DNA of 59,370 nt from a virus: IMG/VR virus record IMGVR_UViG_3300045474_000007, positions 1-59,370 of that record; one strand, written 5' to 3'. The notes under the pieces were generated by a model. It saw only the letters and a program-made list of their open reading frames with translations. It was not told where the DNA came from and ran no database searches. How positions within the stretch are numbered: position 1 is the stretch's first letter; every line of letters starts with the position of its first letter. Positions 1-56,782 of this stretch are shown here, piece after piece. The position numbers and the translations under genes are program-made.

Positions 1-56
1 ACGCCGAGCGTGTAGCGTTGCTTCTCGTTTTTCTCAAGAAAGGGTTTCTGCTTCAT
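1..56 (-). CDS. Putative prohead protease, XkdF-like (N-terminus only)
   Basis: Eighteen complete codons are visible before the window ends, beginning MKQKPFLEKNEKQRYTLG. The pattern resembles the start of XkdF-like phage serine proteases, whose first strand reads YTLGVVYEPDVV. In the family these proteases cleave or shape the prohead. The position directly after portal and head morphogenesis genes is where such a protease or scaffold gene is expected. Start chosen at the only ATG; the SD is weak (GAGCG) and lies just after a terminator-like hairpin. The call rests on few residues plus synteny. Confidence 0.5.
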   Translation of the reverse strand, partial: MKQKPFLEKNEKQRYTLG

Positions 57-68
57 CTATTTTCGCTC

Positions 69-105
69 AAAAAAAAAGCTGGAGCGATCTTTTCGACCGT
101 CCAGC
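69..105 (-). terminator. Terminator-like hairpin before the protease gene
   Basis: Read on the minus strand, GCTGGA (105-100) pairs with TCCAGC (83-78) and is followed by nine U residues (77-69). This is the form of a rho-independent terminator. It sits between the stop of the 66-residue gene and the protease start, so it could end the upstream transcript or act as an attenuator for the protease and capsid genes. The upstream conserved hairpin (see leader copy 1) favours an attenuator or switch reading. Confidence 0.6.
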
Positions 106-165
106 CCTTGTCTCAACCTGGGATGGCACCCCAGCTGCTAATGAATAATGCCTTACGCCCTAAGC
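78..165 (-). promoter_or_regulatory. Structured leader, copy 1
   Basis: On the minus strand this leader carries GTAAGG, then TTCATT, then a hairpin CTGGG-GTGCCAT-CCCAG (134-118), then GTTGAGACAAGGGC, then the terminator-like hairpin. A second copy with the same order of conserved blocks but different, compensating stem bases lies at 45174-45275. Conserved loop GNGCCAN with changed stems indicates selection on RNA structure. It could be a riboswitch-like or protein-binding attenuator; no known class was recognised. Confidence 0.5.
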
Positions 166-174
166 CCTAAACTG

Positions 175-375
175 TCAACCCCTCTTGTTCAAGTCACGCC
201 GAACTTCCATCTGAAACACCGTGGAAATAGGGGAGCCGTTATCCCGGTGAAAGAATACCCGTAGACTGATCCAGTTCATGTTGTCCTCGCTGGCGTGCTC
301 TATCTCTAATTTCCTATGGGCCAATTCGTCGCAAAGCGCAAGACGGATGCGTTCTATGATGGTTAGTTCTGGCAT
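175..375 (-). CDS. Hypothetical protein, 66 aa
   Basis: Unrecognised small protein beginning MPELTIIERIRLALCDELAH. Its ATG overlaps the TAA stop of the head morphogenesis gene (TAATG), and an AAGGAAGGGA SD lies upstream within that gene's end, so it is probably translated by coupling. No signal peptide or membrane segment is seen. A heptad-like N-terminus and a beta-rich middle are the only visible traits. It is the last gene before the terminator-like leader. Confidence 0.6.
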   Translation of the reverse strand: MPELTIIERIRLALCDELAHRKLEIEHASEDNMNWISLRVFFHRDNGSPISTVFQMEVRRDLNKRG

Positions 376-2005: not shown

Positions 2006-3427
2006 TTAGCGCCGTGGAAACCTCGACTTATTGGCAGGCTTATTAGGGTTGACCTTTGGGGGGATGGCAGGATCGGGCGGCAAAGCTTCCGGACTCGGTT
2101 GCGGTAAATTGGCAATACGACGCAGTTGCAACTCCAACGCCTCATCCGGGAATAGAGAAGCCCCGGCCGCAGACAGCTTACTCAGGTAGTCTGCCATCTC
2201 GGTAATGTTCGGCGAGGTGATATCCCCATGAGCCATCTTAGGCGGACGGGTTACGTCCATCGCGTTTAGCTCAAGCAGCCGGGGTATCTCGTGGCGGTTA
2301 ATCGGCTCGGTGATCTTGGACAAGAATGAGCCTAAAGCCACAATGAACAACTGAGTTTTATCAGTGGACAACGCCCAACTGCCAGCCGCCCCTTGCCCCA
2401 AAAATATGAAGTCGGCCAATACCGTCATAGCCATGCGCGTTTCATAGCGCGTGATGGTAGCGTCTAGGTCGAATTGTCGGCGCGATCCGGAGGACAGTAA
2501 CGTTAAATTCCACTGGTTAAATTCGGTATTGGCTAGCGATGCGTCTGCCGCCCCCGGCAACAACACCCCTTCTTGCTGGCCCCGGCGGATTGACTTAACT
2601 AACGCTTCCGCTTTGTGGCGAAGCACCGTCATGTCGGGGTCCTTATCGTTGTATAGGTCCAGCCCCGCTGGCGCACGCAGGACGGGCAATCCAGCCAAGT
2701 CGCGCTCTATCCCGATAGCTTCTATCTCCTGGAATCGCTTGGTGTAGTACCACGGCCGGTAGGCGCGACGCAGCAGACTGGCCCCCTCTGGGTTATTCCG
2801 CTCGGTGCGGGTGCGAAATAAGATCGCCTTGTCTATCGGGATTAGAACCTCTTTGGAAATAGGAAAGTTGCTGGCTTGCCACATCCCCTGGATGCCGCCT
2901 GTATTATCAATCTCCCATCGGCGCAGGGTTTCTTGCCCTCGCAGCGCCCACTTGCGCCAACCGATCTTACGGTCATCGTATAGGCTTTTAGGCAGCGGCA
3001 TTCCTAGCTCATCCATTCCCGGGTCCATGCCATTACGCATCTTGTAACATATCTCTGAATACGCCCAACCGAAGGTAAACATGGTAACGATCTCTGACAG
3101 CGTATCGCTCCAACTGGAGGACATATCCTGCCAGCACTGCTCGATGAACTCCTTGGAAACCTCGTCCTCCGGTAATGAGTCCCCGGCTGAATCCTTGAAC
3201 GGCTCAATGCGCCACTCTACCTGCGTTATCATCTGCTCTATGACGAAAAGAATTGTGGCAATGATCGGATCGTTAGCGGCCATCTCCTTGTATTTTTGGA
3301 TGGCCTTGGTGCCCTGGAGATCAACAAGAAACTCCTCGGTTAGCAGTCCGGCGTATTGCTTTAAGCCGGAGGAGCCTATTTCTAGGAATATTTTCTTAGG
3401 GTCGGAAGTCGGAGTTGGTTCGGCCAT
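2006..3427 (-). CDS. Portal protein
   Basis: 473 residues. The early part (DPIIATILFVIEQMITQVEW) and the later segment RRAYRPWYYTKRFQEIEAIGIERDLAGLP match the portal family found in many siphoviruses. The portal forms the dodecameric DNA channel at one capsid vertex and docks the terminase. The C-terminus is proline-rich (about 440-473). It lies between the terminase large subunit and the head morphogenesis gene, the canonical order. An SD-like GGGGGG run precedes the ATG, and the start overlaps the end of the preceding gene by 32 bases. Confidence 0.9.
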   Translation of the reverse strand: MAEPTPTSDPKKIFLEIGSSGLKQYAGLLTEEFLVDLQGTKAIQKYKEMAANDPIIATILFVIEQMITQVEWRIEPFKDSAGDSLPEDEVSKEFIEQCWQDMSSSWSDTLSEIVTMFTFGWAYSEICYKMRNGMDPGMDELGMPLPKSLYDDRKIGWRKWALRGQETLRRWEIDNTGGIQGMWQASNFPISKEVLIPIDKAILFRTRTERNNPEGASLLRRAYRPWYYTKRFQEIEAIGIERDLAGLPVLRAPAGLDLYNDKDPDMTVLRHKAEALVKSIRRGQQEGVLLPGAADASLANTEFNQWNLTLLSSGSRRQFDLDATITRYETRMAMTVLADFIFLGQGAAGSWALSTDKTQLFIVALGSFLSKITEPINRHEIPRLLELNAMDVTRPPKMAHGDITSPNITEMADYLSKLSAAGASLFPDEALELQLRRIANLPQPSPEALPPDPAIPPKVNPNKPANKSRFPRR

Positions 3428-3917
3428 TTAGAGAGCCCCCCTCTGCCTCACTTCTACACGGGGTTAGCCGTTTGCGCAATTCTATTACTTTCCCGATATT
3501 CCAAATACATCCACTTGAACAATCCCAAGCACTGTACCATAGCAAGTCTGGTTCGTATCGAAGAGCTCGATAATATTCAGGCAACTCAATGCCATCATAG
3601 CCAATTTTTGAGAGTCGGGCCCAGTCTAACGACACAGTGAAATGACTACCCCTATCTTTGATACCGTACTCATTTGTAAACTCGATCAGACTACGACCAT
3701 CTTCTAAGATTAGAAGCTTGCACTGACTATCCAAAACCACTTCGTAGTTAAACTCGCCAATCCAATGCGGCACTTCACTTTTGCACCACTGTAACCACGC
3801 ATTGCCCAAGGCATACCATAATCCAGATGGCTTGGAACCGATCTTGAGGTTATAGACTTGCGCTCGATTAAGAGTAATCGCACTCTTGGAATTTATTGTT
3901 CTTGTTTTCAAATCCAT
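3396..3917 (-). CDS. Conserved hypothetical phage protein, 173 aa
   Basis: Contains the pattern WARLSKIGYDGIELPEYY near residues 100-117 and WYSAWDCSSGCIWN near 127-140, a signature I have seen in uncharacterised phage and bacterial proteins; no function is known to me. The ATG overlaps the TGA of the terminase large subunit out of frame, so translation is probably coupled. Its 3' end overlaps the portal start by 32 bases. Insertion of an accessory gene between terminase and portal suggests a moron. Confidence 0.75.
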   Translation of the reverse strand: MDLKTRTINSKSAITLNRAQVYNLKIGSKPSGLWYALGNAWLQWCKSEVPHWIGEFNYEVVLDSQCKLLILEDGRSLIEFTNEYGIKDRGSHFTVSLDWARLSKIGYDGIELPEYYRALRYEPDLLWYSAWDCSSGCIWNIGKVIELRKRLTPCRSEAEGGSLNGRTNSDFRP

Positions 3918-5386
3918 GCTGCTACCTGCCCGATTCCCATCGGTGCGCCCATCACCTTGGGCTCCGTCCTCTCGAACCGCTGCAAGGCCTGAACCATAGC
4001 GTCCACGTCATCATCGTAATCTCCTTCGGGAAACTCCACCATCAAATCCACTACCTCATTAACCCACGGAACCATAGCCGGGTTAGGCAGCCATAGATTG
4101 CCGGACTCGTGCTGCGGCTGTTGAGCTAGCGCCCTGCCTACCTTGCTGTCCATCTTCATGCCCGGCGGAGGCCAAGGGATAATCCCGGCAATGTGATCGC
4201 GCAATGAATTGATAATAGCTGGCCCGTTGGCCTTATCCTCTACGATCTTAGCCTTTGCCATTGGCCACGCTTGGCACATTAGAGCCAACGCCTTAACACT
4301 GGCGTTGAAGTCCAAGTGCTCGGTGCGCCGCTCTAGCAGATATTTGTTGGACCCCTTCTTTCCCCATACGTGCAGGGCCACCATAGAGCCAGTCTTGAAA
4401 TCCTTGAACGCTGCGTCCATCGAAATGATAACCGTGTCCATCATCGCTGCTGCTTGCTGAGGGGTTTCGGAGTAGTAGCGCCAAAATCCGCGCTTGAATA
4501 TCGCCCCTTCGTCATTGCTTGGGTTCTGCTGATGCTGGGCCTGAAAGATGCGCGGCTTAGTCTTTAGGGCATCGACCTCCACTTGATTGAAGCGTTGGGG
4601 GCATAACAACTCGCCGGGCTTCTTGCGTGGGTCTTTCCATCCGATAGAAGTCATCTTGGATCGGTTCGGCTCGTACTGAGTCGGCAGCATTAGGTATTCC
4701 CAGCCGCCCTCTTTTAGTATCTCCCCGGCAAGGTCCTGTGCGCTTATGCGCTGCATGATGATTAGCCGTCGAGCGTCATTTGGATCGTTGACACGGTTCC
4801 GAACGGCGGAGTTATAGGTGTTGATGGCTGTCTTTAGTTTGGCTTCGGATACCCAATCTTCGGTTGCGTTTGGATCGTCGCAAATAACTGCCTTAGCGCC
4901 CATTCCCGTAACACCGCCCATGCCAAACGCAGCGCGTGTCCCCATCTTATCGTTGGTGAACTTCATCTTCTCGTTCTGATCCGATGTTAGCCGGAACCTG
5001 TCGCTCCAGTTGCGCTGGTACCAATCGGACTCGATAACCCGGCGGCACTTAACCGAGTGATCGCTGGCTAGATGAGAAGCGAACGAAACAAACATGAACG
5101 TGAAGGACGGATCGTGAAGCCAAACCCAAGCAGGCCAGCAGATAGAGCTCACCACAGACTTGGTAGAACGAGGGGCAACGGTTATGAGCAGGTTCTTTAT
5201 CTGGCCGATAAAGAGCGCTTCTAGGTGTTCGCAGATGGCTTGAATATGAAACCCATCTACAAACTTCTCTGTCGGATGCAGGATGGGCCACGACACCCGG
5301 ACGAATTGGTGAAGGCTTTTCTCCGCCAGATACGCGTCGATCTCCTCCAGGGATGGCAACTTAGGCCGGGGTTCAGGCTTGCTCAC
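3908..5386 (-). CDS. terL: Terminase large subunit
   Basis: 492 residues, full length for the family. N-terminal ATPase: Walker A-like APRSTKS (71-77) and Walker B VICDDP (167-172). C-terminal RNase H-like nuclease: SMD at 322-324, VED at 382-384 and YDDDVDA at 457-463 supply the acidic triad. The enzyme cuts concatemers and pumps DNA through the portal. The Walker A lacks the usual Gly before Lys (STKS), a variant I recall from some terminases (T/S-x-KS). Start is GTG, overlapping the previous stop as GTGA, indicating coupled translation. Confidence 0.95.
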   Translation of the reverse strand: MSKPEPRPKLPSLEEIDAYLAEKSLHQFVRVSWPILHPTEKFVDGFHIQAICEHLEALFIGQIKNLLITVAPRSTKSVVSSICWPAWVWLHDPSFTFMFVSFASHLASDHSVKCRRVIESDWYQRNWSDRFRLTSDQNEKMKFTNDKMGTRAAFGMGGVTGMGAKAVICDDPNATEDWVSEAKLKTAINTYNSAVRNRVNDPNDARRLIIMQRISAQDLAGEILKEGGWEYLMLPTQYEPNRSKMTSIGWKDPRKKPGELLCPQRFNQVEVDALKTKPRIFQAQHQQNPSNDEGAIFKRGFWRYYSETPQQAAAMMDTVIISMDAAFKDFKTGSMVALHVWGKKGSNKYLLERRTEHLDFNASVKALALMCQAWPMAKAKIVEDKANGPAIINSLRDHIAGIIPWPPPGMKMDSKVGRALAQQPQHESGNLWLPNPAMVPWVNEVVDLMVEFPEGDYDDDVDAMVQALQRFERTEPKVMGAPMGIGQVAAWI

Positions 5387-5574: not shown

Positions 5575-5656
5575 CACCCCTTTGAAATAGCCCCTATTTG
5601 GGCCGTATTTGCGATTCTAGCTAGGGTTCTCCCAGAATAAGGGTAACCCTAGGGGG
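5575..5656 (-). repeat. Dispersed dyad element, copy A
   Basis: Plus-strand core CACCCCTTTGAAATAGCC and CCTATTTGGGCCGTATTTG, then a block AATAAGGGTAACCCTAGGGG. One of six related intergenic copies (also near 11947, 25067, 33645, 47435 and 53836). GCCC/GGGC and AAATA/TATTT inverted repeats are present. It fills the gap between two small genes. Function unknown. Confidence 0.5.
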
Positions 5657-5669
5657 GATGGCAATAACA

Positions 5670-6686: not shown

Positions 6687-6729
6687 GCGTAACGCAGTAA
6701 CATTGCGTTACGCAGTAGTCAATCCTCCT
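6686..6729 (-). promoter_or_regulatory. Hairpin that may bridge an SD to the start codon
   Basis: On the minus strand TGCGTAACGCA (6714-6704) and TGCGTTACGCA (6696-6686) form a perfect 11-bp stem with a 7-base loop. The stem ends on the A of the ATG. An AGGAGG lies at 6729-6724, 37 bases from the ATG, but only 9 bases away if the folded hairpin is skipped. Phage T4 is known to use such folded spacers before some starts. The same dyad could instead be an operator. Confidence 0.5.
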
Positions 6730-7694: not shown

Positions 7695-7719
7695 TTTTTC
7701 TCTCCCTCTCTCGGGTTTT

Positions 7720-10209: not shown

Positions 10210-10241
10210 TTGTATTTCTCCCTCTCAGTTAAAAGTTACTT

Positions 10242-11912: not shown

Positions 11913-11946
11913 TTTTTCTTCTCCCTGGGTAAACAATACGGTTTCA

Positions 11947-12030
11947 ATACCCCTTCAAAACACCCTCTATTTCGCTCCAGGATCGTTTTTAAGCCACTTT
12001 CAGCCAAGGTTAAGGGGTTACTAGGGGTCC
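11947..12030 (-). repeat. Dispersed dyad element, copy B
   Basis: Core AACACCCTCTATTTCGCTCC, AGGATCGTTTTTAAG, then GGTTAAGGGGTTACTAGGGG. CTTCAAAA and TTTTTAAG form an imperfect inverted repeat around the core. Nearly identical core, in the opposite orientation, at 47435-47515. Occupies the gap between two small genes. Confidence 0.55.
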
Positions 12031-16225: not shown

Positions 16226-16257
16226 TTTCTCTCCCTTTCTCTCTCTGTTGCGCACGC

Positions 16258-16959: not shown

Positions 16960-16989
16960 ATTTCATTCTCCCTCTGTGTTGAGCCTGAT

Positions 16990-17202: not shown

Positions 17203-17235
17203 GTTCGTTCTCCCTCTCTGTTGCGCACGCCGTTA

Positions 17236-25038: not shown

Positions 25039-25066
25039 ACTTTTCTCCGTTCAGTTTTATAGGTTA

Positions 25067-25150
25067 GAACCCCTCTCAAACACCCCGTATTTGGCTCCAG
25101 GATTCGATTTGAGAGGGGGTTAGGGGTTGGTTAAGGGGTAGATAGGGGTG
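25067..25150 (-). repeat. Dispersed dyad element, copy C (best inverted repeat)
   Basis: CCCCTCTCAAA and TTTGAGAGGGG form a perfect 11-bp inverted repeat around the core CACCCCGTATTTGGCTCC-AGGATTCGA, followed by GGTTAAGGGGTAGATAGGGG. Occupies the gap between the UvrD-like gene and a small gene. The dyad could form a cruciform or a stable RNA hairpin. Confidence 0.6.
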
Positions 25151-25347: not shown

Positions 25348-25404
25348 TTAGGCCTCCTCAATTTCGAACCCTGCCGCTATCATTTCGTCGGGGTCTAATT
25401 TCAT
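25348..25404 (-). CDS. Possible 18-residue peptide gene
   Basis: ATG with a good AGGAG SD eight bases upstream encodes MKLDPDEMIAAGFEIEEA and a TAA. Acidic amphipathic helix. It may be a real micropeptide or a translational leader feeding ribosomes to the next gene, whose SD follows directly. Confidence 0.35.
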   Translation of the reverse strand: MKLDPDEMIAAGFEIEEA

Positions 25405-25478
25405 GTTATTGACTCCTATGGGTTGGTTAGGTTAAGTTGCCTATGCGGTTTCTCTCGGGCCGCATTTCTCTCTCTCTT

Positions 25479-25536
25479 GGCCCCAGGAGTTTTCCATTCT
25501 CCTGGGGCCTCTTTCTCCCCTTCTCCCCTTCTCCCC
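25479..25536. promoter_or_regulatory. Perfect 11-bp hairpin next to three tandem octamers
   Basis: GGCCCCAGGAG (25479-25489) and CTCCTGGGGCC (25499-25509) are perfect complements around a 9-base loop. Right beside it TTCTCCCC repeats three times (25513-25536), reading GGGGAGAA on the minus strand. There is no U-run, so this is not a classical terminator. It lies just after the H1-like gene. It may stabilise the 3' end of that mRNA or stall polymerase. The rest of 25405-25535 shows no convincing gene. Confidence 0.45.
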
Positions 25537-26497: not shown

Positions 26498-27047
26498 TGT
26501 CGTGTTCCTTTCTGTTGCGCACGTTGTGGTAGCTGCCATCATCAGTGCTCAGGAACAACCCCGAGCAGACGAGCCGGATCGCTCCGGCCCGTTTCGGCTT
26601 TTATTATTGCCATCCCCCAACGCTCTCGCCTTGCTCAATCAAGGATTCGTCTCCGTGTGCCTACACCGCCATTGATTTGCGCGTGGATCGGATTGTGGTT
26701 GCGTCTCACGACGGAGTGCAATGCGACGTGCGCCCGCTTTAGGTTGCTCAAGTTCATGCTTGGAAATGCGGCAGCATCGTTGGTACGAAGCCATACGTGC
26801 AGCCGGGGATCGCAATTAACGGGACAATGGTTTTCGGCGGATAGAATTTCTTGGCTTTGGGGTCGTCCGATAATCAACCGACCGTTAGATCGGGACCGTT
26901 ACCGGATTTGGTTACCACTCGGATGTCGTTTCACGGTGGTGGACTGTTTGTCGGGGGTCTACAGGGCGTCGTGTTTCCCTGGCGGCATTCGATCTTCTAC
27001 TCGGTGGCCGCGTATTCAGTTTTCAAAGATCAAATTGATGAAATCAG
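26498..27047. other. Gene-free segment of about 550 bases with hairpins
   Basis: No reading frame on either strand has family motifs and a good SD. On the minus strand several local helices are visible: CAGGG/CCCTG, a GGTC-CCGAT/ATCGG-AC-GACC helix, CCTTG/CAAGG, GCCGGA-TCGC-TCCGGC (26573-26588) and TGCTCAGG/CCCGAGCA (26546-26567). A promoter-like sequence stands at its upstream end. It may be a long leader, a non-coding RNA or decayed coding sequence. On the plus strand GCCG..CGGC followed by TTTTATTATT (to about 26606) could be a terminator. Confidence 0.4.
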
Positions 27048-33642: not shown

Positions 33643-33644
33643 CG

Positions 33645-33730
33645 ATGCCCCTTCAGAATAGCCTTTATTTGGACCGTAAAGGCCCCTAGAACGAACGCAA
33701 AGCCTAAACTAAGGGGTAACCTACCCCTCC
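33645..33730 (-). repeat. Dispersed dyad element, copy D
   Basis: Plus strand CCCCTTCAGAATAGCCTTTA, then TTTGGACCGTAAAGGCC, then CTAAACTAAGGGGTAACC. GCCTTTA/TAAAGGC forms a 7-bp hairpin. It lies in the leader of the 1477-residue protein gene and fills the 78-base gap. Confidence 0.5.
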
Positions 33731-44676: not shown

Positions 44677-45144
44677 CTAACTGGCTCGGTAGAAGTTGGC
44701 CACGAGCGCGACGATATCCGACCCGTCCGGCGTCATGACGAAGTCATGGGCCGTAAGCGGAATGATGTTGGCGTCGGTCCCAGCCGTGGTATCGTTGTCG
44801 TAGCAAACTATCAGCTTGCTCCACCCGTCACCGGCGGCCACGGCGGACCAGGTTTGATCGCCGAAGTCTAAGTCTGTTCTATCGTTGCCGGTGTCCGTCG
44901 CAAACGCGACAAGATCGGCATCCGTTAAGACCTTGCGAGCATAACCGCTGTTGGTAACCTCGTTGGTCGCTCCCGATACAACGTCCGCCAATGTGGCCTT
45001 GTCTTTAAGCGTGGCATCGGACTCTAAGCCAGACGTAGCCAGTGCCACAACAACCAGCGCCGAATTGGCCGGATCGTTTGACTTGACCCGATTATACAAC
45101 TCAGCCACCCTGCCGAGCGCGATGTTGAATACAAAATTTGCCAT
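44677..45144 (-). CDS. Phage structural protein, 155 aa
   Basis: Begins MANFVFNIALGRVAELYNRV; continues with ALVVVALATSGLESDATLKD, then TWSAVAAGDGWSKLIVCYDNDTT. This arrangement is common in phage proteins annotated as structural near fibres. SD GGGAGG. The gene follows structured leader copy 2, so its expression may be controlled by that element. Confidence 0.65.
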   Translation of the reverse strand: MANFVFNIALGRVAELYNRVKSNDPANSALVVVALATSGLESDATLKDKATLADVVSGATNEVTNSGYARKVLTDADLVAFATDTGNDRTDLDFGDQTWSAVAAGDGWSKLIVCYDNDTTAGTDANIIPLTAHDFVMTPDGSDIVALVANFYRAS

Positions 45145-45173: not shown

Positions 45174-45275
45174 AAAAAAAAGCGATGCTGAAAAATTCAA
45201 CACCGCCCTTGTCTCAACTTGAGTTGGCCCCTCAACTGCCGTTGTATGAACCCTTACACCCTTACGCCCCGACTG
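45174..45275 (-). promoter_or_regulatory. Structured leader, copy 2, with terminator-like hairpin
   Basis: Minus strand order: GTAAGG, TTCAT, hairpin TTGAG-GGGCCAA-CTCAA (45235-45219), GTTGAGACAAGGGC, hairpin GTTGAA-TTT-TTCAGC (about 45201-45187), then eight U residues (45181-45174). The block order matches copy 1 at 69-165 while stem bases differ and still pair. Fills the gap between the 45284 and 44677 genes; the only other content is the SD. Confidence 0.55.
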
Positions 45276-45283
45276 GCAAACTT

Positions 45284-47410: not shown

Positions 47411-47434
47411 TGGCCTGCATCCCTCTTTGCCTCG

Positions 47435-47515
47435 CTACCCCTAGTCACCCCTTAACCATCCCGTAGGGTGCGTTAAAAACGATCCTGGAGCGAAATACGG
47501 GGTGTTTCACAGGGC
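47435..47515 (-). repeat. Dispersed dyad element, copy E (inverted orientation)
   Basis: Plus strand ACCCCTAGTCACCCCTTAAC, GTGCGTTAAAAACGATCC, TGGAGCGAAATACGGGGTG. It is the reverse complement of the copy at 11947 with near identity in the core. Its end overlaps the stop of the minor tail protein gene. It fills the gap between two genes. Confidence 0.55.
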
Positions 47516-48127
47516 TTCTATGGCCTCCAAAGTCAGCCCGTAGAGCCGGGTAGTGGCTACGCTCCAGTCCATGATGTTATCCTTGAGCCGAAATACCCCT
47601 TTAGTCGCTGATAGTGTTAACGCCGCATTGTCCGAGGGGCTCTCGCGCAATCGTGGCCAGATGTCGAAAGCTATCTCTCCGCTGCTGTTGGAGCTGCCGT
47701 TAGTCAGAACCTTGTAAAGCCGCTGGGTAGTCCCGCTGCCGATTTGGATCCAATCCCCCGCCAGCAGCACACCGCTCGTGCTTACCGGCCACCCGTCCGT
47801 CACTAAGGTTTGCCCCGTCTGGCTTGCCCCTTTGACTAACGGAGTGCCGCCAGCCGAGCCCATCGGAGCCTTTAGGATAGAGTCCCCAAAAAGAAAGGTG
47901 CCCTGCATCCCGTTAAGACTCAGGAGCGCCGCAATCCACTGCTGGGCCTTTAGGTTCTCCATCGGCGGCAATTCGAACTTGACCGCCCAGGATTGCCCTT
48001 GTAGTGCCTGGACCTGCGAAGCAAACGTGAACGGGGAGCGCACCGAGGCCACTGCGGATACCGGCATCCACTCGGTATTGCGAGGGCCGGGCGATGAAGG
48101 GAGCGTGATCGGATAGCTTATAGCCAT
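47507..48127 (-). CDS. Minor tail protein
   Basis: 206 residues. Pattern: SPFTFASQVQALQGQSWAVKFELPPM (31-56), GTFLFGDSILKAPMGSAGGTPLVKGASQTGQTLVTDGWP, then GDWIQIGSGTTQRLYKVL and YGLTLEAIEAL. These are family hallmarks of a minor tail protein found in many phages near the tail tip. Likely a beta-rich distal tail subunit. Confidence 0.8.
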   Translation of the reverse strand: MAISYPITLPSSPGPRNTEWMPVSAVASVRSPFTFASQVQALQGQSWAVKFELPPMENLKAQQWIAALLSLNGMQGTFLFGDSILKAPMGSAGGTPLVKGASQTGQTLVTDGWPVSTSGVLLAGDWIQIGSGTTQRLYKVLTNGSSNSSGEIAFDIWPRLRESPSDNAALTLSATKGVFRLKDNIMDWSVATTRLYGLTLEAIEAL

Positions 48128-53923: not shown

Positions 53924-56782
53924 CTATACGCCTACTGCCTGCCAGTCGAATATTCCATCGACCGTATCGGCATTTCGATCAAACGCAATCCACGTAAACT
54001 GAGTCGTGCGCACCTCGCTAAACGAAACCGTCTTAACTCCTCCTCCTCGATATCCCCAACTCATAGACGGCGATAGATGATACCGCTGATCAAACACCAC
54101 ATCCTGGCCGCCTGCCGGAAGCACAACAGCCGTTCCTTTCTGTTCTACCCGTTTTTTGTCGATAACAACATCGAAGCTCTTTAGGGTGCCGCAGGAAGTC
54201 GGTGTGAAAGTGAACTGAATGCGGTGTTTAAAGAACCGCCCCTCAGCTGATACATCGCGCACTATTTTTTTCCATCCGGTGTACTCTTCCGCCGTGTTGA
54301 ACCGCGCTGTAGAAAACGCCCCGGGATAGAATGCGCCAGGATCGAACCCGCCAGAGAACCCGCCAGCATTAAGCCCGGTGCGAAAGTCGTATAGCTTAAT
54401 GACTCCAACCGCATTTATGATTCCCGGGCCTACGGAAAAGCTGGTTAGGATATACGTGCGCACGAGGTCTACAAAGTCTATATCTACTTCGTTGCTCTCA
54501 AAGTAAGCGTCCGGCACCGGGTCTACTACGAACGTGTTGAACAAATCGAAATTGTTTTCGTTAGCTGGCGTCCTGTCCTGCGGGTTCATGTGGCCCGTCC
54601 ATGGGTTAAAGACTAATCCATGAGCCGTCCCCTTGCTCCAATCCCACTCTCCCTTTATTTCGGATATCGCCTCGTATCCGATCCGGTCAACTAGGTCGCT
54701 TACTACTGCTGAAACGAACGGGTTGAAAAGGTGTGTATCCGGCGAGGGATCCATCGGCACTTCGTCAGTTGCCGGGTTAAAGTCATAGATGGCCGCATTC
54801 GTTTCCCGCAGGTCCATAGCGATGCCAAGCCCAGGAGTATCCCCTTGTCCCACCTGGGTAAACTGCCAACTAATAACCTCAAACGCTTTATCTATCCACC
54901 CTAGCCCATCATCGTTTAGATAAACCACATCCCCTGCCCTTACCCGTAGGCCCGCTAGAGTAACCACAATGGAGCACGATACCTGCTCCCGATTGCGTAG
55001 CAGATGCATAAACGCGGTGCGCTGAGCCATGCTGGAGGAAGTTGTAAACGGTAGTTCTATATCCTGCCAAATCTTATCGCCTCCGTCCTCGCTAACGAAC
55101 GTGGCATTAGTAATCGGCGGGAAGTCTGCCGACTGCCAAAGATTCTTAGGAGAGATGAATGTGCCGCGAACCGAGTTAAATAAATCCCGGCGGCTTCGCC
55201 TCGCTTGAACTTTTAAACTATCAACGTAGTCATTAGGGCCGAACGATACCGTTGGGGTTTCGTAGCCAGCCGCACGAATTAACCACTTACCGCCCGAATA
55301 GGCGCAGGTGCCGACAAGCGAAGTAAGCAAATCCTCAAATACTTCTCGCGGCGGTTGATCGCTAAAGATTAAACCGTTGGCCTCGTATTTCTTTTCGCTG
55401 CCGAGAACCGAATCATCGTCTACCCATACAGCTCCTGTAATAGTGCCGTCGTGAATCTGAACGGAGTCCTCCGCTCGTAGCCCCACTTTTTCGTCAAGCT
55501 TCCAATATCCTTCTAGGTTGTCCTCCCGGCCGACTAAACTCTTATAAGCGTAAGCTGAAATGCTAACCGCTGCTCGCGGCTCCGACCATAAGCGAACATC
55601 CTGAATGCGCCCTTCGAACGCTCTGCCGATCTTAAGGTTAGCTGCCGAGCTCGCCAGGGTTCCCGTAACCCCGCTAGCCGTGTTGGATAGAACTCCGTCA
55701 ACGTAAATCTTTTTAGTGCCAGCTACTGAGTCCCACACCGCCGCGATATGAGTCCATGTGTCAACTGCTAACTCGCTACCTGTATCCAACGTGACGTTAG
55801 ATAGCCCGCGAGTAATAAACCGCACCTTATCCTGCTCTACCTGGAGTGCCCACCCAGCCGCGCCCGTATCTTTCTCCAAAACTCCCATACCGGCTACGGT
55901 AACAACCCCAGGGCTAACCCTGGCTTCAATCGTTACGTCGCCAACAAGATCCAGCACCGTCCCCATGTCGATTACGTTGGAAACCCCGTCAAACTCCAGC
56001 GTCTGACCGGCCATGATAGCCACATCCTCATCGCAAGCGTTAGCCGCGTCAATCAGCAAGTCTGTGTCGATCTCTGTTGTGTAAGGGGCGTCCAGCCCGT
56101 AAATGGGATGGTTTAGCCAATGAGCCACGGCTAGAGCCGCATTGGGGCTATACTCTGTAGAGCTGTCGCGAGGATCGAAAAGCTTTGCCCCTCGAATAAC
56201 AAACGTAGGAGAAGGAATCTTGTCAAACACATCCCCATTGAAAAAAAACTTAAACACCACGTGAGCGATCCCCTGCAATCTATCGCTCGCCATATATCCG
56301 GGAAAGTTGCCTATTAACAGGGACGATGCTGTTTGATCCTCTGTTCCTAGATGTTTCTCGAATTCCACCCAACCTTTGAACTTAGGTTGGACAACCCCGA
56401 ACTGGTCAATCATCAACTCGTCATAGTTGTAAATTTCATCTATCGCTTCCACCTCGTGACCCGCTACGATAACTCCCATCATAAGTTCCATGTCGCTGTT
56501 AACGCTATCGTAGAAATGAAGCACCCCACCGCGCTTAACTCGGCCAAATATCATATCGCGGGGGTGGGCGGGTTCTTTAACTGTAGATTGTAAATCTTGT
56601 CGCCTGTTACTAATAGCTCTCTTATCCGGCTTGGACTTCAGTAGGGCGCTTACTCCCATGGAAATAGCCATTGAGAGAACCATCGCAATGACATTGGCAA
56701 TTATCGTTGCTACGGTTTCTGCAACTCCTGCGGCAACCAGAGCGGCTGTTATGGCCGGAATAATCGCAGGCATATCACCCAA
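53924..56782 (-). CDS. Tail tip (J-like) protein with inserted LamG domain
   Basis: 952 residues. N-terminal hydrophobic/glycine-poor segment (10-50), then KEPAHPRDMIFGRVKRGGVLHF and HPIYGL, a layout typical of J-type host-contact proteins. At about 257-455 a LamG domain (QTLEFDGVSNVIDMG, WTHIAAVWDSVAGTKKIYVDG, GRIQDVRLWSEPR) is inserted between ANACDEDVA and KKYEANGLIFSDQPPRE, which are contiguous in ordinary J proteins. The second half continues the J fold with fibronectin-like regions. It is the likely main receptor contact. Confidence 0.85.
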   Translation of the reverse strand: MGDMPAIIPAITAALVAAGVAETVATIIANVIAMVLSMAISMGVSALLKSKPDKRAISNRRQDLQSTVKEPAHPRDMIFGRVKRGGVLHFYDSVNSDMELMMGVIVAGHEVEAIDEIYNYDELMIDQFGVVQPKFKGWVEFEKHLGTEDQTASSLLIGNFPGYMASDRLQGIAHVVFKFFFNGDVFDKIPSPTFVIRGAKLFDPRDSSTEYSPNAALAVAHWLNHPIYGLDAPYTTEIDTDLLIDAANACDEDVAIMAGQTLEFDGVSNVIDMGTVLDLVGDVTIEARVSPGVVTVAGMGVLEKDTGAAGWALQVEQDKVRFITRGLSNVTLDTGSELAVDTWTHIAAVWDSVAGTKKIYVDGVLSNTASGVTGTLASSAANLKIGRAFEGRIQDVRLWSEPRAAVSISAYAYKSLVGREDNLEGYWKLDEKVGLRAEDSVQIHDGTITGAVWVDDDSVLGSEKKYEANGLIFSDQPPREVFEDLLTSLVGTCAYSGGKWLIRAAGYETPTVSFGPNDYVDSLKVQARRSRRDLFNSVRGTFISPKNLWQSADFPPITNATFVSEDGGDKIWQDIELPFTTSSSMAQRTAFMHLLRNREQVSCSIVVTLAGLRVRAGDVVYLNDDGLGWIDKAFEVISWQFTQVGQGDTPGLGIAMDLRETNAAIYDFNPATDEVPMDPSPDTHLFNPFVSAVVSDLVDRIGYEAISEIKGEWDWSKGTAHGLVFNPWTGHMNPQDRTPANENNFDLFNTFVVDPVPDAYFESNEVDIDFVDLVRTYILTSFSVGPGIINAVGVIKLYDFRTGLNAGGFSGGFDPGAFYPGAFSTARFNTAEEYTGWKKIVRDVSAEGRFFKHRIQFTFTPTSCGTLKSFDVVIDKKRVEQKGTAVVLPAGGQDVVFDQRYHLSPSMSWGYRGGGVKTVSFSEVRTTQFTWIAFDRNADTVDGIFDWQAVGV

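Follow-up and report, generated by a model that had tools for sequence, protein, structure and literature searches.

What is the role of two similar intergenic elements, each running into an intrinsic terminator ahead of genes of the virion region, in a phage of which nearly all genes lie on the same strand? We found these elements on the minus strand, the gene strand, of an IMG/VR virus record of 59,370 bases (the whole stretch analysed, hereafter the window), at 104-178 and 45205-45279, in the two regions that an earlier note on this DNA had described. With 72% identity over 75 nt, they constitute the longest direct repeat of the window (blastn E ~1.6e-8 between the copies), and each is followed by a terminator (Table 1). 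The homology ends exactly at GGGC and the terminator stems beyond it consist of unrelated sequence.

From 5' to 3' the leader is made up of TTG[A/C]CA, a spacer, GTAAGG, AG, a 5-bp hairpin (P1) with the loop GNGCCAN, the linker GTTGAGACAAGGGC, the terminator hairpin and nine or eight U residues. The parts that had been claimed, from GTAAGG via hairpin, loop and linker to the second hairpin and the U-run, were all present in both copies; the claimed common TTCAT had to be dropped, as it is out of register between the copies and is not retained in sister phages. TTGnCA and GTAA occur in all copies of the family described below, with a distance between TTGnCA and TAA of 17, 17, 18 and 18 nt. A leader peptide was rejected as a candidate, since none is conserved and the reading frames differ between the copies.

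Table 1. Positions of the leaders, their parts and the genes that follow them (window coordinates unless another phage is named)
Feature	Position	Strand	Evidence or remark
XkdF-type head maturation protease, start of the gene after leader 1	1..56	-	Pfam PF14550, E 1e-21; ATG at 56
Intrinsic terminator 1: hairpin 109-78 and nine U (77-69)	69..109	-	-20.2 kcal/mol for 112-66
Leader copy 1, conserved 75-nt block	104..178	-	72% identical to copy 2; model R2 93.4 bits
Linker GTTGAGACAAGGGC, copy 1	104..117	-	14/14 identical to copy 2; last GGC at 106-104
P1, copy 1: CTGGG - GTGCCAT - CCCAG	118..134	-	Family-wide 3/5 pairs changed on both sides, 0 broken
TTGACA (178-173), 17-nt spacer, TAAGGC (155-150), copy 1	150..178	-	Promoter-like spacing, or 5' strand of a closing stem
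155-aa PHROG 26662 protein (function unknown), first gene after leader 2	44677..45144	-	E 1e-35
Intrinsic terminator 2: hairpin 45210-45182 and eight U (45181-45174)	45174..45210	-	-17.1 kcal/mol for 45210-45171
Leader copy 2, conserved 75-nt block	45205..45279	-	Homology to copy 1; model R2 82.9 bits
Linker GTTGAGACAAGGGC, copy 2	45205..45218	-	14/14 identical to copy 1
P1, copy 2: TTGAG - GGGCCAA - CTCAA	45219..45235	-	Sequence reading
Sister-phage leader	L393 1414-1481	+	Terminator scan of loci, then reading
Sister-phage leader	L394 1380-1447	+	Terminator scan of loci, then reading

A scan for strong terminators (stem energy of -14 kcal/mol or lower beside at least six U residues) returned two on the minus strand of the 59-kb window and none on the plus strand. 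These are the ends of the two leaders, and therefore each strong terminator of the record carries a leader. The U-run is separated from the next start codon by 12 nt (copy 1) or 29 nt (copy 2), which makes a separate promoter between them unlikely. At both sites the arrangement is that of an attenuator, with an intrinsic terminator located between a structured leader and the downstream start codon, and the GGC of the linker also forms the base of the terminator stem, adjoining the U-run. In truncated transcripts of both copies the 5' end of the leader pairs with the 5' arm of the terminator, but as an antiterminator this pairing is only suggestive and not significant, as 6% of column permutations equal it; the general complementarity between leader and terminator arm was no better than in shuffles.

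Three more copies of the leader were found, one in a near-identical phage (L054) and one in each of two sister phages (L393 and L394). The loci of the sister phages, whose protease and major head protein share 48-50% and 54% identity, respectively, with those of the window's kind of phage, were reached by a profile search for the protease, followed by a terminator scan and reading. In both, the leader sits at the syntenic site, downstream of the homologue of a 66-aa gene and ahead of the head genes (two genes before the scaffold region, and also ahead of the head protein), and the T-run directly precedes the next start codon (at 1534 and 1499, respectively). A covariance model (R1) for which only copies of the window's phage and of L054 had been used gave these two sites the top rank in their respective loci (E 0.012 and 0.00035 with filters off; the E-values are rough). 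The earlier note had made its case depend on further covarying copies in related genomes; with L393 and L394 such copies exist, and the case was not refuted. Two weaker matches of R1 in the window (55829-55896 and 54841-54898) are inside a tail-fibre gene and look like chance. The family as known consists of four distinct leaders in one phage group; the L393 and L394 records are fragments, and these phages may have a second copy.

The stem P1 exists as CTGGG/CCCAG (copy 1 and L054), TTGAG/CTCAA (copy 2) and TTCAG/CTGAA (L393 and L394), and since the two sister phages have the same stem these are three independent versions, not five. Between the two window copies alone, two of the five pairs have both partners replaced and no pair is lost, as had been claimed; when substitution was simulated at the observed divergence, all five pairs were kept with at least two double changes in 0.25% of trials, or 0.8% when the simulation was restricted to four stem changes. 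Over the family, three of the five pairs are altered on both sides and none is broken. These counts come from an alignment (A6) that was fitted by a model to the P1 structure and they consequently lean towards P1, yet P1 is plain by eye in every copy. With three helices counted together, none of 500 shuffles matched the observed percentage paired or the covariation score, and slid registers did worse. In copy 2, P1 by itself reaches -3.6 kcal/mol, which is weak, and the predicted minimum-energy fold of that copy does not contain it. In the sister phages a closing stem (TTGAC/GTCAA) encloses the two hairpins in a multi-branch fold; this stem has one mismatch in the window's copies. Judging from their spacing, TTGnCA and TAA may alternatively be promoter elements, 17-18 nt apart. 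A promoter scan of both sites called no sigma-70-like promoter in the leader or between terminator and gene.

Constant throughout the family are the loop GCCA, the linker ..CAA(G)GGC and the upstream TTGnCA...GTAA. Because neither the loop GCC nor the final GGC of the linker ever varies, covariation speaks neither for nor against the pairing between them that had been suggested; it is possible in every copy, where it overlaps the base of the terminator, and comprises 3 bp only.

Searches of wider scope added no members. Rfam 15 had no family near its gathering threshold and no similarity even at E up to 10, which settles the Rfam check that had been called for. An exact-core scan of 2.9 million viral contigs returned no copy beyond the near-identical phage, degenerate scans of viral contigs had only that phage among the matches listed, and a pattern scan of GTDB genomes gave seven chance matches, none of them with hairpin or terminator. 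A strict descriptor (AG, 5-bp stem, NNGCCA loop, CAA+GG+C) matched, on both strands of 8.07 Mb, the family members and one site without upstream motif and T-run. A search with model R2 of ~1.16 Mb from kin loci, and of 31 records, brought up nothing else that convincingly belongs to the family. Reading around relatives of the 155-aa gene did not reveal the leader, nor did tracking it via terminase relatives, and DNA searches of annotated phages gave nothing relevant. A fast record search overlooked the L393 and L394 copies, and its empty answers are weak. Literature searches found no full-text paper describing the leader. As judged from sequence, then, the leaders are a small, previously uncatalogued RNA family, present in the window's phage and its sister phages, and the earlier claim, that of an RNA family that stands before virion-region genes and shows compensatory change, has stronger support than two copies could give.

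The genes around copy 1 are head genes. Upstream are the portal gene (2006-3427), a MuF-like head gene (375-1895) and the 66-aa gene (175-375), and downstream the XkdF-type protease gene runs off the window; it is complete in L054 (6924-7403), where it is followed by a 392-aa protein (with a partial match to head-protease and unknown profiles) and the major head protein. Other XkdF-type phages (L395, L396 and L400, with L402 and L403 as duplicates) have plain intrinsic terminators directly before the head protease match, and L059 likewise has a plain terminator at that site, with no repeated leader found. The plain terminators at the same spot in L395, L396 and L400 suggest a recurrent transcription boundary, to which the leader is an addition in the window's phage group. 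Copy 2 lies downstream of tail genes (including those for the distal tail protein, 47507-48127, and the central fibre protein J, 53924-56782), and its 155-aa gene is followed by large beta-helix proteins. The earlier note had placed both leaders before late virion genes. For copy 1 this is sound on account of the protease and the major head protein; for copy 2 the "structural protein" was a guess, and late expression at this second site is only likely.

The MuF-like head protein (minus strand) has an intein-like insertion in its HPxCRC motif (HPHC|LVPD...NHPIL...FLNEGDYV...IVASN|CRC), and the opposite strand over the insertion (459-1145, plus) contains a conserved frame with a helix-turn-helix (HTH) and a Vsr/DUF559-like nuclease. 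The counterpart in phage L472 (2880-4619, plus) has an antisense frame as well (3780-4490, minus), and the frames of the two phages are 39% identical. The antisense frame looks like a homing endonuclease inside an intein, with both strands coding. Antisense homing genes are known within group I introns (PMC9548176); we found no paper on one inside an intein.

Several other intergenic elements were observed in the window. A second family of ~75 nt occurs at 11937-12020 and 25039-25130 (both minus) and at 47411-47506 (plus sense), with weaker copies at 33643-33720 and 5578-5669 (both minus); it has an ACCCCTT/AAGGGGT closing and the core ATCCTGGAGCnAAATACGGGGTGTT (3 matches vs 0 expected), and is possibly another structured RNA, with no match in an Rfam search of the copy at 25039. 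A type II hammerhead ribozyme (26527-26599, minus; 52.5 bits with a gathering threshold of 37) adjoins a copy of the repeat GCGCAACAGAnAGGnA. The repeat GCGCAACAGAGAGGGAG / GAGAGGGAGA occurs on the minus strand (16237-16253, 16968-16984, 17210-17226 and 26504-26520, and also 7695-7719 and 10210-10241), in several cases just before a start codon (4 matches vs 0.19 expected), which is reminiscent of actinophage start-associated sequences. Intergenic hairpins are present at 25362-25535 (minus; CCCCAGGAG...CTCCTGGGG, with GGGAGAAGG repeats on the flanks) and at 6687-6718 (minus; GCGTAACGCAATGTTACTGCGTTACGC).

With regard to function, we lean, cautiously, towards a single cis-acting RNA leader, present in two copies, that works as a conditional terminator (attenuator) before virion-region genes; it probably controls the expression of late genes as a stop-or-go switch. 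By default, polymerase would stop at the U-run, whether it comes from upstream or from a promoter inside the leader (TTGnCA-N17/18-TAA). Intrinsic termination is driven by closing of the stem base, and since the GGC is part of that base, a loop-linker pseudoknot or a bound protein would favour read-through. The GCC of the P1 loop could capture the GGC, so that the bottom of the terminator beside the U-run cannot close; alternatively, a trans-acting factor, most likely a phage protein, could hold hairpin and linker and thereby keep the terminator base open. At copy 1, read-through would then reach the head genes, and at copy 2 the post-tail module. The identical loop and linker in two copies of one genome argue for one shared reader, and the leader probably answers to one shared trans-acting factor; if one factor reads both copies, the two transcription units would be coupled in time. 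Possible, if somewhat doubtful, is the more specific proposal that we deal with a new class of phage RNA switch, in which the hairpin-loop/linker pseudoknot of a ~75-nt leader competes with the terminator and binding of a factor made by the phage switches on both the head and the tail-fibre modules at once; no late antiterminator has been recognised in this phage group.

The family had also been proposed to be a riboswitch. An attenuator is plausible from the anatomy of the sequence, but a metabolite riboswitch, with P1 and the GCC:GGC pseudoknot as a small aptamer and the terminator as expression platform, is highly improbable: the leader does resemble preQ1-I-type small pseudoknot riboswitches in its size and in the possible overlap of pseudoknot and terminator, but it has no ligand, no relatives in Rfam and, for the pattern tested, no members in host genomes, and where an aptamer before related metabolic or transport genes in many genomes would be expected, only phage virion-region genes follow. 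It is very unlikely, too, that these are plain, unregulated terminators with a fixed partial read-through between modules, preceded by a duplicated intergenic stretch of little function. The terminators without a leader in the other XkdF phages, and the absence of a leader beside every relative of the 155-aa gene that was read, would fit that explanation, but the leader, with its loop, linker and pairing, has survived in phages whose proteins differ by ~50% and whose terminator arms are not alike.

Two alternatives modelled on known phage systems deserve more weight. We consider it unlikely that the block is mainly a late promoter (TTGnCA, a fixed spacer and TAA) in a promoter-terminator module like PR'-tR' of lambda, where a short RNA would constantly be made until a Q-like phage protein, loaded at promoter-proximal DNA, lets polymerase pass the terminator, with loop and linker as DNA or pause signals. 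The spacing is kept although the spacer sequence varies, the gap between U-run and gene hardly leaves space for a promoter, and lambda Q controls its late genes by such logic (PMC7171158). A good -10 hexamer is nevertheless absent, in line with the promoter scan, and the compensatory change in P1 points to recognition of RNA rather than DNA. A search of the window, which lacks the head genes after copy 1, turned up no known lambdoid Q antiterminator (no match to PF03589, and for PF06530 only a sub-cutoff one of 11.4 bits inside the unrelated HTH-nuclease frame). Quite unlikely is a put- or nut-like processive antitermination, in which the folded leader would bind polymerase, with or without a phage protein, and make it resist this and later terminators. 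The HK022 genome has exactly two similar put RNAs (putL and putR) of ~70 nt with two stem-loops each (PMC9378689), which compares well with two similar ~75-nt elements before terminators, and the sister-phage leader folds as a closing stem around two hairpins. That stem is mismatched in the window's own copies, however, the leaders abut the terminator and use its base, which put elements need not do, the window has no other strong terminators to overcome, and Rfam gave no match.

Little is known of how late genes are timed in phages that follow neither the lambda nor the T4/T7 models. The compact leader described here sits on the two terminators that are the only strong ones in a phage record, and sister phages retain it with compensatory changes, which makes it a concrete, testable candidate for a late switch. 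If it is a switch, the few RNA switches that overlap a terminator would be joined by one from a phage. Among known systems, preQ1-I is a small pseudoknot riboswitch with a terminator platform. The leader is like it in that a hairpin loop could pair with a downstream strand that is also used by the terminator, and differs in having another sequence, no ligand or metabolic context, and a distribution that is so far restricted to phages. The likeness to HK022 put concerns size and copy number, that is two similar hairpin-based elements per genome, upstream of terminators; put, however, belongs to early operons and acts at a distance, whereas the leader abuts and overlaps a single terminator before virion-region genes. 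With the lambdoid PR'/tR'/Q system, in which late genes are governed by terminator read-through (PMC7171158), the leader shares a terminator before late genes, read-through that would license them and a possible promoter; it differs in the conserved, covarying RNA hairpin, in the two modules in one genome and in that no Q protein was recognised in the window. In logic, HK022 put and lambda Q are nearest to the leader, a likeness that need not mean membership.
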